Program-made: the position numbers and the translations under genes
Notes under the pieces: generated by a model
What the model was told of the DNA's origin: nothing
Seen by the model: the letters and a program-made list of their open reading frames with translations, nothing else
Database searches by the model: none
NCBI GenBank assembly: GCA_902541315.1
Contig: CACBQF010000003.1
Location: 50,483 to 114,482 of the forward strand
Direction: 5' to 3'
Length of the DNA: 64,000 bases
From: an uncultured Pelagibacteraceae bacterium
Lineage (GTDB): Bacteria; Pseudomonadota; Alphaproteobacteria; Pelagibacterales; Pelagibacteraceae
Shown here: piece by piece, positions 8,179-21,001 of the stretch
Numbering within the stretch: the stretch's first letter is position 1
How the letters are laid out: each line of letters begins with the position of its first letter

Positions 8179-8758
8179 AATTTTTTAGATAATCTTTAAT
8201 TTTGTCAATAGGAAGGCCCATAATGGTATTTTCATTCCCTTCAATTTTAGAAAATAAAGCTCTGCCCTCACCCTCAATTTGATAAACATTATACGAATAA
8301 AGAGCTTCATCACTTATCTTTGACAAATAACGTTCTAATTCATTTTCAGTAAAAACTTTCATAGTAAGTTTGGCTCTATCGGTATAATTCCAGACCATAA
8401 ACCCATCTTTTGATATGCAAACCGAACTTATTAAATAATGAACTTTTCCGTTAAGTTTTTTTAATATCTTTATGGCTTCATCTCTGCTACCAGGCTTTGA
8501 AATTAATTCCCCCTCTAAATCTATTACACTATCCGCACCCAATACTAATTTATTAGGTTTTTTCATACTAACTTTATTTGCTTTTAATTCTGCTAAATTT
8601 TTTGAGATTGTTTCTGGACTTGCATTTTCATTTAAAAGGCTCATTTTAACAAGATCTTCATCAACATTTGACGGCTCTACAAAATTCTCAATATTATTTT
8701 TATCTAAAATATTTTTTCTCACTTTACTTTTGGAAGCTAAAATAATTTTTTTATCCAT
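8171..8758 (-). CDS. maf: Maf family nucleotide pyrophosphatase
   Basis: ILASKSKVRKNIL, LGADSVIDL, YQIEGEG. Confidence 0.95.
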   Translation of the reverse strand: MDKKIILASKSKVRKNILDKNNIENFVEPSNVDEDLVKMSLLNENASPETISKNLAELKANKVSMKKPNKLVLGADSVIDLEGELISKPGSRDEAIKILKKLNGKVHYLISSVCISKDGFMVWNYTDRAKLTMKVFTENELERYLSKISDEALYSYNVYQIEGEGRALFSKIEGNENTIMGLPIDKIKDYLKNYE

Positions 8759-9581
8759 TTTTTTTATTAGAGAAAATTTCGTAGATTTTTATTATCGATG
8801 CAGCAGTTTCCTCGACTGACTTTCTTGTAACATCAATTGTTGGCCATTTGTACTTTTTAAAAGTATTTTTTGCTTCTTCAACTTCTTTTTTTATTTTGTT
8901 TAAATTTGTATAATCTTGATTCTTTTTATCTTTTAATGAATTTATTCGATTCTTTCTTACATCGGCTAACCTTTCTGCTTCAGTGGTCAAACCTATTATG
9001 CAAAAATTTTGAGGATTTTCTTTTAAATTTTTTGGTATAGAATTTTTATTCACTAAAGGAATATTTGCAGTTTTAAAACCCTTGTTGGCTAGATAAATAG
9101 AGGTTGGTGTTTTACTTGTTCTACTTACACCTAGTAAAATAATATCTGATTTTTCGACATCATTAAGCAAGTTTCCATCATCATGATTCATGGTAAATTG
9201 TATTGCCTCGATCCTGTCGTAATATTCATCATTTAAGGCATGTTGTCCGCTAGGTTCATGAGAGGCCTTTTGATTAAATAATTTTGAAAAATTTAAAATT
9301 AAACTACCCAGTACTCCGAAGCATGGTATTTTTTTTTTATCACACGTGTTAGCTAAAAATTTAGCTAAATTATTATCAACAATTGTGTAGAGAATTATTG
9401 AATTTTTTTCCTTAGTCGCTAAATCCAAGATTTTATGTATTTGATTTTCTGTTCTAGTAAACGAATATGAATTTACCTTATAATCAATATTTTTGAATTG
9501 AGCTTTTAGTGACAAAAAAATTCTGTCTAAAGTTTCTCCAGTAGAGTCCGAAATCAAGAATATTTGATAAGTATTAGCCAT
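8751..9581 (-). CDS. ppsR: Pyruvate,phosphate dikinase regulatory protein (DUF299)
   Basis: IFLISDSTGETLDRI, LLGVSRTSKTPTSIYLANKG. Confidence 0.95.
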   Translation of the reverse strand: MANTYQIFLISDSTGETLDRIFLSLKAQFKNIDYKVNSYSFTRTENQIHKILDLATKEKNSIILYTIVDNNLAKFLANTCDKKKIPCFGVLGSLILNFSKLFNQKASHEPSGQHALNDEYYDRIEAIQFTMNHDDGNLLNDVEKSDIILLGVSRTSKTPTSIYLANKGFKTANIPLVNKNSIPKNLKENPQNFCIIGLTTEAERLADVRKNRINSLKDKKNQDYTNLNKIKKEVEEAKNTFKKYKWPTIDVTRKSVEETAASIIKIYEIFSNKKNG

Positions 9582-9842
9582 GTATATTTTGTTAATATCT
9601 TTGTAATATTTTAATAGATTTAAATAAATTTATTTTTTCCTTAAAATAGCATGTAAAATGCTTGTTTTATTAACATTTTTTATTAAGTGGAAAACAATTA
9701 TACAAATGATTAAGTAATTCATAAATTGCATGTAAAATTGTAAAAATTAAAGAATAAACGGTTAATAAAATGTTCATAAAAAATAGTTACCATTATTCAC
9801 ATTCCCTAATAATACTACAATCTTATAATATATATTTTATTT
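9582..9842. other. oriC: Putative chromosomal replication origin (oriC)
   Basis: AT-rich gap between ppsR (RP001-type position) and hemE; exact DnaA box TTATTCACA at 9793-9801 plus 1-mismatch boxes at 9667-9675, 9698-9706, 9771-9779(-); direct repeat GCATGTAAAAT at 9649 and 9728; AT-rich stretch next to hemE; parAB/parS nearby. Confidence 0.65.
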
Positions 9843-10844
9843 ATGACTCCAATTTATGAAGTTTTAAAAAATAATAATACAACTATAAAGCCTATATGGA
9901 TTATGAGGCAAGCTGGAAGATATTTGCCTGAATTTAGAGAAATTAGAGCTAAAAATCCTGATTTTATAAAACTTTGCTTAAATGAAAATTTATCTGCAGA
10001 AATAACTTTACAGCCATTGAAAAGATTTGATTTAGATGCTGCAATAATTTTTTCAGATATTTTAATGCTACCATATGGACTAAATCAGAAAGTTGAATTT
10101 AAAAAAGGAATTGGACCTATTTTAGGAGATTTAAATTTAGATAATATTCTTAAATTAGATGAAATCGATTTTGTTAAAAAGCTTACACCAGTTTATAAGT
10201 TGGTTAATTTAATTAAAGATAACAATCTTACAAAAAATAAAAATACAATCGGTTTTGTTGGTGCTCCGTGGACCTTACTAGTTTATATGATTAACAAGAA
10301 ATCTCCAAAATTAGGTTTAAAGAGTGATTTTTTTAAAGATGAAAAACTTATAAACAAAACTTTAAAGATTATCGAAAAATTTTTAAAAGTTCATATTAAA
10401 AATCAAGTTGATAGTGGTGCGCAAATCATTCAAATTTTTGATAGTTGGGCTGGACTATTAAGCGAAAAAGACTTTACAAACTATATTTATGAACCCACAA
10501 TTAATATAGTGGAGTATACTAAATCTTTAAATGTACCAGTAATATGTTTTCCTAAAGGTATAAAGAAATTTAAAGACTTTTGTGAAATTGTTAAGCCTAG
10601 TGCTATCTGTATTGATTACGAAGTTGATCCAAAAGAAATTTTAAAAGATATTCAAATTCCTGTTCAAGGTGGTATGGATCCAAAGGTTTTATTAACTGAT
10701 CAAGAAAACTTGAAAAAAGAGGTAAAAAAATATTTGAATATTTTTAAAGATCATCCTTATATATTTAATTTAGGGCACGGAATTTTGCCTGAAACTAATC
10801 CAAAAATGATGGATTATCTTGTAAAAATGGTGAAAGATCATTAA
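9843..10844 (+). CDS. hemE: Uroporphyrinogen decarboxylase
   Basis: PIWIMRQAGRYLPEFRE, GFVGAPWTL, FNLGHGILPET. Confidence 0.98.
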   Translation: MTPIYEVLKNNNTTIKPIWIMRQAGRYLPEFREIRAKNPDFIKLCLNENLSAEITLQPLKRFDLDAAIIFSDILMLPYGLNQKVEFKKGIGPILGDLNLDNILKLDEIDFVKKLTPVYKLVNLIKDNNLTKNKNTIGFVGAPWTLLVYMINKKSPKLGLKSDFFKDEKLINKTLKIIEKFLKVHIKNQVDSGAQIIQIFDSWAGLLSEKDFTNYIYEPTINIVEYTKSLNVPVICFPKGIKKFKDFCEIVKPSAICIDYEVDPKEILKDIQIPVQGGMDPKVLLTDQENLKKEVKKYLNIFKDHPYIFNLGHGILPETNPKMMDYLVKMVKDH

Positions 10845-11843
10845 ATGGAAAATAACAAAAATCATCCACAGGTTAATTTTGGCAAAACTGGAGTTTTAAT
10901 AATTAACCTAGGAACACCTGACTCAACAGGCTGGCTAGATATAAGAAAATATTTGAGGGAATTTTTATCTGATAGAAGAGTAATAGAAGTTAATCCTATA
11001 ATTTGGCAAATCATATTAAATGTTTTTATATTAAACTTGAGGCCTTCAAAAACTGCTAAAGCTTACAAGGAAATTTGGATGAAAAAAGAAAATATATCTC
11101 CATTACTTTACTATACTCGACAACAGGCAAATAAATTATCAAACTTGATATCTGATAAGAATGTTGTTGTGGATTTTGCCATGAGATATGGAAATCCGAG
11201 TATTAGAAGTAAAATAAAAGCTTTACATTCTATGGGTTGTGAAAATTTGGTAGTACTTCCATTATATCCTCAATATGCTGCAGCAACTACAGCCACAGTT
11301 TGTGATGAAGTTTATAGAACACTTATGAAAATGAGGTGGCAACCGTCTATTAAGATTATACCTCATTACGAATCTCACCCTCAATATATAGATGCTTTAG
11401 TAAATTCACTGAATAACAAGATAAAAGAAATAAATTGGAAACCAGATTTAATTTTGACGTCTTACCATGGCATACCACAAAAATATTTCGATAAAGGAGA
11501 TCCGTATCACTGTTATTGTCAAAAAACTACTAGATTGATCTCGGAAAAGTTTAATTCCATAGAGTTTAAAACAACGTTTCAATCAAGATTTGGTCCTCAA
11601 AAATGGCTTGAACCATACACAGACAAAACATTAGAAAAATTACCTAGCGAGGGTAAAAAGAATGTTCTTGCAATATGCCCCGGTTTCTCATCTGATTGTG
11701 TCGAAACTTTAGAGGAAATTCTGATTCAAGGCAAAGAAACCTTTTTAGAGTCAGGTGGTGAAAATTTTGACATGGTTCCATGTTTAAATGATAGTGATGA
11801 TCATATAGCCTTAATAAAATCTTTGGTTCAAAAAAGCCTATAA
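10845..11843 (+). CDS. hemH: Ferrochelatase
   Basis: GVLIINLGTPDS, YPQYAAATTATV, SYHGIPQKY, CPGFSSDCVETLEEI. Confidence 0.98.
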   Translation: MENNKNHPQVNFGKTGVLIINLGTPDSTGWLDIRKYLREFLSDRRVIEVNPIIWQIILNVFILNLRPSKTAKAYKEIWMKKENISPLLYYTRQQANKLSNLISDKNVVVDFAMRYGNPSIRSKIKALHSMGCENLVVLPLYPQYAAATTATVCDEVYRTLMKMRWQPSIKIIPHYESHPQYIDALVNSLNNKIKEINWKPDLILTSYHGIPQKYFDKGDPYHCYCQKTTRLISEKFNSIEFKTTFQSRFGPQKWLEPYTDKTLEKLPSEGKKNVLAICPGFSSDCVETLEEILIQGKETFLESGGENFDMVPCLNDSDDHIALIKSLVQKSL

Positions 11844-18721: not shown

Positions 18722-19368
18722 TGGATAACTTGATTTTAAATTCTTATTCCAAAATCTCCAATTTGAATGTTTCACGTGAAACTTGTAATGAGCTCGAGAG
18801 CTTAATTTCAATGATACAGGAGAAAAATCAAGAAATTAACATTATAAGCAAAAAAACATATGAAAAAGAGGCAATAAGAGAGCGGCATATAGTAGATTCA
18901 GCGCAAATTATTGATTTTGTTGATTTAAATAGCAATACAACCTCAGATTTAGGTTCTGGAGGAGGTATGCCTGGGTTAATTATAGCTATAGTGATGAAAA
19001 ACATAAAAAATAACATGAAAGTAAACCTTTATGAAAAAAGTTACCACAAATGTGTTTTCTTAAGGGAAGTTTCAAAAAAATTAAATTTAAATACAGAAAT
19101 AATTCAGGAAGATATTTTTTCTCTTAAAAATATTGAAACTGGAACAATAATGTCAAGGGCTTTTAAGCCAATGCCAGTGATTTTAAACTTGGTTAATGAA
19201 AATTTTAAAAAATATAAAAATATTATTTTTTTTATGGGAAGTAGTGGAAGAAAAATTCTTAATGAAACACTTCAAGAGTGGGATTTAGATTATGAAGAAA
19301 AAAAAAGTTTAACTAACAACGACTCGTTTATACTAAATATCAAAAAAATTAAAAAAAAAATTTCATGA
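18721..19368 (+). CDS. rsmG: 16S rRNA (guanine527-N7)-methyltransferase RsmG
   Basis: NVSRETCNEL, DLGSGGGMPGLIIAI; mnmG-rsmG-parA-parB synteny. Confidence 0.96.
   Translation: MDNLILNSYSKISNLNVSRETCNELESLISMIQEKNQEINIISKKTYEKEAIRERHIVDSAQIIDFVDLNSNTTSDLGSGGGMPGLIIAIVMKNIKNNMKVNLYEKSYHKCVFLREVSKKLNLNTEIIQEDIFSLKNIETGTIMSRAFKPMPVILNLVNENFKKYKNIIFFMGSSGRKILNETLQEWDLDYEEKKSLTNNDSFILNIKKIKKKIS
18768..18783. promoter_or_regulatory. parS: parS centromere site inside rsmG 5' end
   Basis: TGTTTCACGTGAAACt: 15/16 match to TGTTTCACGTGAAACA, just upstream of parAB. Confidence 0.92.
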
Positions 19369-20159
19369 AAATAATTTCGATTATAAATCAAAAGGGTGGG
19401 GTTGGAAAAACAACAACAGTTATCAATTTGGCATCGGCGTTATCTCAACTTGGTAAAAAAATTTTGGTAATTGATCTAGACCCTCAAGGGAATGCTACTA
19501 CAGGATTGGGATTATCCAATAATTCTCAATCTGATCAAACAATTTATGGAATTCTTAATGGGACAATGTCGATTTCAAACGTAATCAAAAAAACAAACTT
19601 TCAAAATCTTGATTTAATATCATCCAACGTGGATCTTTCTGGATTAGAAGTTGAGACCGCTGGTGATAGTGATAGAGCCTTTATACTTAAGGCCAAATTA
19701 ACTGCATATCTAAATGATTCTAGAGGATTATATGATTATATTCTCATAGATTGCCCTCCTTCTTTGAGTCTTCTGACTGTAATGGCTTTGGTATCATCTA
19801 ACTCACTTCTTGTACCATTACAAACAGAATTTTTTGCTTTAGAAGGACTTACACAGCTTATGAAGACTATTGAGAGGATTAAAACTAATTTGAATCCTGA
19901 ATTGGTGATTCAAGGCATACTTTTAACTATGTACGATAGAAGAAATAAACTTTCGTCACAGGTTGAACAAGAAGCGAGAGATTATTTCAAAGATAAAGTT
20001 TACCAAACAGTGATACCTCGAAATGTAAGATTATCAGAGGCACCATCTCATGGTATTCCAGTATTGATTTATGACAAGAATTGCCCAGGAAGTAAATCAT
20101 ACTATAGTTTCACAGATGAGTTCATGGCACAAGAAAATAAAGTTGGGAGTGCCGCATAA
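19365..20159 (+). CDS. parA: Chromosome partitioning ATPase ParA
   Basis: ISIINQKGGVGKTTTVINLA deviant Walker A; followed by parB. Confidence 0.98.
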   Translation: MKIISIINQKGGVGKTTTVINLASALSQLGKKILVIDLDPQGNATTGLGLSNNSQSDQTIYGILNGTMSISNVIKKTNFQNLDLISSNVDLSGLEVETAGDSDRAFILKAKLTAYLNDSRGLYDYILIDCPPSLSLLTVMALVSSNSLLVPLQTEFFALEGLTQLMKTIERIKTNLNPELVIQGILLTMYDRRNKLSSQVEQEARDYFKDKVYQTVIPRNVRLSEAPSHGIPVLIYDKNCPGSKSYYSFTDEFMAQENKVGSAA

Positions 20160-21001
20160 TGAATAAAATAAAAAAAGGGTTGGGCAGAGGTTTATCTTCT
20201 TTAATCGGCGAAACCAAAGTTGAGAAAAAAACTAATAATCTTAGTTTAGCCGAAATAGTTCCAAACAAATATCAACCAAGAAAAAACTTCGATAAGGAAA
20301 ATTTAAATGATTTAATTAATTCAATAAAAGAACGGGGTGTTATTCAGCCAATTATAGTTAGAAAATCTAATACGGATAACTCTAAATACGAAATTATAGC
20401 TGGAGAAAGAAGGTGGTTAGCAGCTCAGAAGGCCGGATTACACGATATTCCAGTAGTTGTAACAGATGCTGATGATTTAAAATCTTTGGAATTTGCGATT
20501 GTTGAAAATGTTCAGAGACATGACCTAAATCCCCTAGAGGAAGCACAAGGCTATAAAAGATTGATAGATGAATTTGCATATGATCAAGATAAAGTATCAA
20601 AATTTATAGGTAAAAGCAGAAGCTACATTTCAAATTCATTAAGATTACTTAATTTACCAAAAGAAGTTCTAGATTTTGTAGAACAAAAAAAGATTACCGC
20701 TGGTCATGCAAAGATATTAGTAGGATTAGATAATGCTGTATTTCTAGCAAATAGATTTATTGAAAAAAAATTATCTGTTAGACAAGCAGAAAATTTAGTT
20801 AAAATATTTAGAAAAACTAAAAGAAACACCTCTACTAAAGTGGATTCAAATATCCGAGATTTAGAAAATTCTATATCTGAAAAAATCGGTCTTAGTGTTT
20901 CTATTAAAAATAATAAAAAAAATAAAGGCTCAATATCATTTTATTACAAAGAGCTTGATCAACTAAACAAGATAATTGATATAATTAAATCTGGATATTA
21001 G
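20159..21001 (+). CDS. parB: Chromosome partitioning protein ParB
   Basis: GLGRGLSSLIGE, IVPNKYQPRKNF, IAGERRWLAA, ENVQRHDLNPLEEA. Confidence 0.98.
   Translation: MNKIKKGLGRGLSSLIGETKVEKKTNNLSLAEIVPNKYQPRKNFDKENLNDLINSIKERGVIQPIIVRKSNTDNSKYEIIAGERRWLAAQKAGLHDIPVVVTDADDLKSLEFAIVENVQRHDLNPLEEAQGYKRLIDEFAYDQDKVSKFIGKSRSYISNSLRLLNLPKEVLDFVEQKKITAGHAKILVGLDNAVFLANRFIEKKLSVRQAENLVKIFRKTKRNTSTKVDSNIRDLENSISEKIGLSVSIKNNKKNKGSISFYYKELDQLNKIIDIIKSGY

Follow-up and report, generated by a model that had tools for sequence, protein, structure and literature searches.

The ppsR-hemE gap as the putative chromosomal replication origin of a SAR11 bacterium

The window analysed here is a stretch of 64,000 nucleotides (G000:C3:50483-114482) from a SAR11 (Pelagibacterales) draft genome of 1.03 Mb in 35 contigs. 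Compared by hemE, the nearest relatives bearing a name were SAR11 (Pelagibacteraceae) genomes obtained from single cells and metagenomes. Within it, a 261-bp intergenic gap with an AT content of 83.5% (71.2% for the window) separates two divergently oriented genes:

8751-9581, minus strand: ppsR (COG1806/DUF299, kinase-PPPase), the left boundary (NCBIfam PRK05339, 1.6e-91; Pfam PF03618, 5.6e-91)
9582-9842, no strand: putative oriC, the AT-rich intergenic region between ppsR and hemE (divergent gap, on the skew plateau in relatives)
9843-10844, plus strand: hemE, the right boundary (NCBIfam TIGR01464, 8.5e-96)

The plus strand encodes all genes from hemE to parB (ending at 21001), and the minus strand carries ppsR-maf-aroE-coaE-dnaQ. 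A preliminary description of this DNA had given the coordinates of the gap, its divergent flanks, the orientation of the hemE-to-parB genes away from it and a TATAATATATATTTTATTT stretch at its hemE side. The open reading frames (ORFs) and NCBIfam matches agreed with the first two claims and the ORF strands with the third, and the stretch is present at 9824-9842. In a synteny comparison, a divergent gap of 260-285 bp was kept in nearly all SAR11 loci examined, and ppsR still adjoined hemE in 28 of 30 loci of other alphaproteobacterial families. The next gene, hemH (10845-11843 in the window), shared approximately 70%-90% identity with the window's copy in some SAR11, and just 26%-34% at the same place in others (L184, L196 and L198 were noted). 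These sequences suggest that hemH was replaced by a distant version in some SAR11.

An alignment of 55 less redundant SAR11 gaps was used to rank conservation within the gap. The three highest-ranking features were the following:

9667-9675, plus strand: DnaA box TTATTAACA, joint highest in conservation among the gap's 9-mers (mean 0.92)
9761-9779, minus strand: tandem DnaA-box-like block, consisting of TTATGAACA at 9771-9779 and, 10 bp on, a weaker TTTATTAAC at 9761-9769
9793-9801, plus strand: DnaA box TTATTCACA, sharing first place in conservation with the 9667 box, and anchor of the proposed unwinding module

The tandem block (0.86-0.91) ranked third after the boxes at 9793 and 9667. At the place of the 9667 box, TTATNNACA was found in 73% of the 55 non-redundant gaps, and the equivalent of the 9793 box started 50 bp upstream of the hemE ATG in most loci. 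The exact box TTATTCACA and the one-mismatch boxes TTATTAACA and TGTTCATAA (9771-9779, minus strand) had been predicted beforehand; they are present, and the comparison with close relatives, which had been suggested as a check, revealed their conservation across SAR11. Another predicted box, TTATACAAA at 9698-9706, and an 11-bp direct repeat, GCATGTAAAAT at 9649 and 9728, are likewise present but were dropped as functional features, because neither was conserved in the 55-gap alignment.

It had also been cautioned that box-like words arise by chance, and rightly so: TTATNCACA occurs three times in the window against 3.7 expected, and a single exact box is not significant. The clustering of boxes is a different matter. 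The three TTATNMACA words in the gap, a number reached in none of 5,000 dinucleotide shuffles of its sequence, are packed more densely than any other such cluster in the window. Across 150 SAR11 gaps, many of them related, the mean was 3.07 versus 0.18 in shuffles, and across 84 less redundant gaps it was 2.88 versus 0.19. In the stretches sampled from the closed relatives G012 (780 kb), G182 (400 kb) and G065 (400 kb), TTATNMACA words were again most densely clustered in the gap. By this strict motif, some gaps of family f2 contained no or one canonical box, and the motif was mostly missing from the ppsR-hemE gap in other alphaproteobacterial families. A second box-like cluster in G012 at approximately 1,324.4 kb (L183) was rejected; it lay mostly in coding sequence (transporter/regulator genes) and was lost under the stricter TTATNMACA.

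The 9793 box is followed, up to the hemE start, by two further elements:

9806-9817, minus strand: DnaA-trio-like repeat with phased TA, top strand CTA-ATA-ATA-CTA (bottom strand 3'-GAT TAT TAT GAT-5')
9818-9842, no strand: AT-rich tract that may be the first to melt (G makes up 1.8% of its top strand across relatives)

The module thus reads TTATTCACA-TTCC-CTA-ATA-ATA-CTA, with a 4-bp spacer between the box and the four trio-like triplets, and the pattern of a box plus three NTA had its single match in the 64-kb window at this module (9793-9817). When 135 gaps were aligned on the terminal box, TA occurred at positions 14, 17, 20 and 23 in 85%, 72%, 57% and 87% of them, and seldom between. Of 72 non-redundant gaps, 24 had four consecutive NTA, where shuffling of the same 33 bases predicted 2.9, and 34 had three (11.4 expected); approximately half lacked an uninterrupted run of three. 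In an f2 gap (L187), the repeat takes the form CTACTACTACTA. Search rules published for the basal unwinding system (BUS) call for a box with at most two mismatches to TTATCCACA, a spacer of 0-16 bp and at least three central-A triplets (PMC8287927). TTATTCACA has one mismatch to TTATCCACA, the 4-bp spacer leads to four triplets with a central A on the trio strand, and conservation of the repeat in relatives exceeded chance, as counted above for four NTA. We infer from this sequence pattern that SAR11 DnaA uses the trio-like repeat for unwinding. The trio pattern, as well as the strict box, was mostly missing from the ppsR-hemE gap in other alphaproteobacterial families, and the trio module is therefore claimed for SAR11 only. 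Conserved intergenic DNA might also represent an undescribed non-coding RNA or riboswitch. Conservation, however, was focused in the 9-bp DnaA-box words and the 3-bp phased repeat, and a search of the gap against Rfam had no match; an RNA at this place is scarcely credible.

A -10-like TACAAT overlaps the end of the trio-like repeat. The hemE promoter probably overlaps the right end of the gap and may explain part of the conservation there. Taken further, the gap might be only a divergent promoter region, from which ppsR and hemE both start and in which the box words could be regulatory sites where DnaA or some other factor controls transcription. Against this explanation, promoter-like matches were at chance level (6 versus 5.4), and natural rearrangements have altered the surroundings of the element without removing it. 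In family f2, for which the search gave no ppsR match, maf occupies the place of ppsR, and a gap of similar size (275-307 bp) still lies upstream of hemE. In genus g9, rho has replaced hemE beside ppsR, and the gap between them still carries boxes (in G068, it holds the string TTATAAACATTCCCTAATAATA). In L090, an island of approximately 3.4 kb of genes splits ppsR from the element, which, with TTATTCACA, is still beside hemE. The retention of the element through these three changes argues against a mere promoter region, as does the finding that the element lies on the skew minimum plateau even where hemE has left, and we consider this explanation very unlikely. The island itself (L090:1397-4726) contains ORFs that, named by eye, are methyltransferase-like, LicD-like and PQQ-dehydrogenase-like. 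The hemE of g9 (L189 and L190; G068 and G069) is very divergent, sharing 29% identity with that of the window, and the g9 haem genes may have been replaced or relocated.

The position of the element in the genome was assessed from cumulative GC skew, computed from stretches of the closed relatives G012, G182, G065 and G069. Each curve had a single minimum region and a single maximum region, with the maximum roughly opposite the minimum. The gap fell inside the minimum plateau in G012 (gap at approximately 1,262 kb, plateau 1,220-1,315 kb) and G182 (335.5 kb, 284-416 kb) and on it in G065 (1,090 kb, approximately 1,060-1,090 kb). In G069, in whose lineage hemE has moved away, the element (141.3 kb) was inside the plateau at approximately 135-175 kb, with ppsR at the skew minimum and hemE near the maximum. 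With the gap as origin, the replichores of G012 would measure approximately 592 and 751 kb. The GC-skew check proposed in the preliminary description thus gave a broad plateau containing the gap in all four closed relatives, at coarse resolution: the minimum is a plateau of approximately 100 kb that mostly tracks gene orientation and does not single out the gap, the exact minima lay 17-29 kb from the element, and skew at fourfold and intergenic sites was too weak for fine placement of the origin. Within the window, cumulative skew was lowest near 40.9 kb. A single V-shaped origin-terminus pattern is described for SAR11 in a coverage study (PMC9589681).

The element and dnaA are 63-73 kb apart in the closed relatives. 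An origin near dnaA might be implied by SAR11 maps that start at this gene, as one study begins its genome alignments at DnaA (PMC12421898), and in G012 and G182 the broad skew minimum includes dnaA or comes close to it. In G069, by contrast, cumulative skew was still falling well past dnaA and reached its minimum near the element, and in eight genomes the surroundings of dnaA, out to approximately 1.5 kb, held no TTATNMACA cluster. An origin at dnaA is therefore extremely improbable.

Further support came from a segregation site downstream of hemE:

18769-18782, no strand: parS GTTTCACGTGAAAC, inside rsmG and just upstream of parAB, the sole exact match in the window
19365-21001, plus strand: parA and parB (ORFs, translations; ParA-family profile matches)

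This parS, a perfect 14-bp palindrome, falls within the coding sequence of rsmG. Where the four closed relatives were sampled, it was the only such site with at most one mismatch (the G182 form has one), and its distances to the element were 7.2, 9.3, 17 and 19.5 kb. Three features are new relative to the preliminary description: the tandem block at 9761-9779, the trio-like repeat by the 9793 box and the perfect parS at 18769.

The conserved box array, the skew plateau, the retention of the element when its neighbours change and the nearby parS all support the earlier reading of the gap as oriC, and on this genomic evidence the gap is very probably the chromosomal replication origin of this SAR11 bacterium. 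Initiation might proceed as follows. DnaA would bind the array at 9667 (plus), at 9771 and its weaker neighbour (minus) and at 9793 (plus), and a DnaA filament would extend from the 9793 box onto the trio-like repeat at 9806-9817 and open the AT-rich tract at 9818-9842. Helicases would then load at the opened tract and forks depart both ways, with the flanking genes transcribed in the direction of the forks, and segregation of the new origin would fall to ParB bound at the 18769 parS.

Searches of the window gap for regulatory consensus sites found no CtrA site (TTAA-N7-TTAA), no IHF site (WATCAANNNNTTR, consensus search) and no GANTC. Among non-redundant gaps of relatives, 46% contained at least one CtrA consensus (mean 0.56 versus 0.26 expected) and 19% an IHF consensus, and GANTC was rarer than expected in relatives' gaps (0.04 versus 0.15). 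CtrA sites are a regulatory feature of Cori and are not required for an origin as such. Despite the gap being without GANTC, a CcrM-like protein (RAMA domain) is encoded at G000:C2:31781-32059. For Pelagibacter, a methylation study describes a gradient of GANTC methylation from origin to terminus (PMC9516812). Tentatively, the SAR11 origin could be reduced and self-contained, with the box array and trio module in less than 300 bp, many lineages without CtrA, IHF or GANTC consensus sites, and initiation perhaps controlled by DnaA alone, although we regard this proposal as somewhat less probable than its opposite.

SAR11 bacteria rank with the most abundant cells of the ocean, and estimates of their in situ growth rely on origin-to-terminus coverage. 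For this purpose, a precise origin, placed 63-73 kb from dnaA in closed relatives, would serve as a fixed reference point, and the gap offers a small DNA for experiments with DnaA. A literature search found no report naming the ppsR-hemE gap as the SAR11 origin; predicted-origin databases (e.g., DoriC) were outside its scope and may list the gap. The placement is the expected one for alphaproteobacteria, yet far from dnaA, and the value of the present analysis lies in the precise SAR11-wide anatomy and this distance rather than in a new mechanism.

The Caulobacter origin was mapped experimentally, and its boundary genes are hemE and COG1806, as in Rickettsia (PMC1914354). This precedent of an origin beside hemE, invoked in the preliminary description, holds for the SAR11 gap, which has the same boundary genes as Caulobacter crescentus Cori and Rickettsia prowazekii oriC, is likewise AT-rich and contains several DnaA boxes. 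In contrast to those origins, both > 400 bp (PMC1914354), the window gap spans 261 bp, and it lacks CtrA, IHF and GANTC consensus sites. The predicted module resembles the BUS of Bacillus subtilis and others (PMC8287927) in its order of box, short spacer, at least three NAN triplets and AT-rich tract, and in its box-proximal triplet 3'-GAT-5', whereas its spacer is 4 bp instead of the usual 10-13 bp and its inner triplets are 3'-TAT-5'. In the Wolbachia, Ehrlichia and Anaplasma origins (hemE and COG1253; PMC1914354), the hemE side was kept and the other neighbour changed, as also seen in SAR11; unlike in those genera, either neighbour of the SAR11 element is changeable, ppsR being missing in f2 and hemE having moved away in g9.
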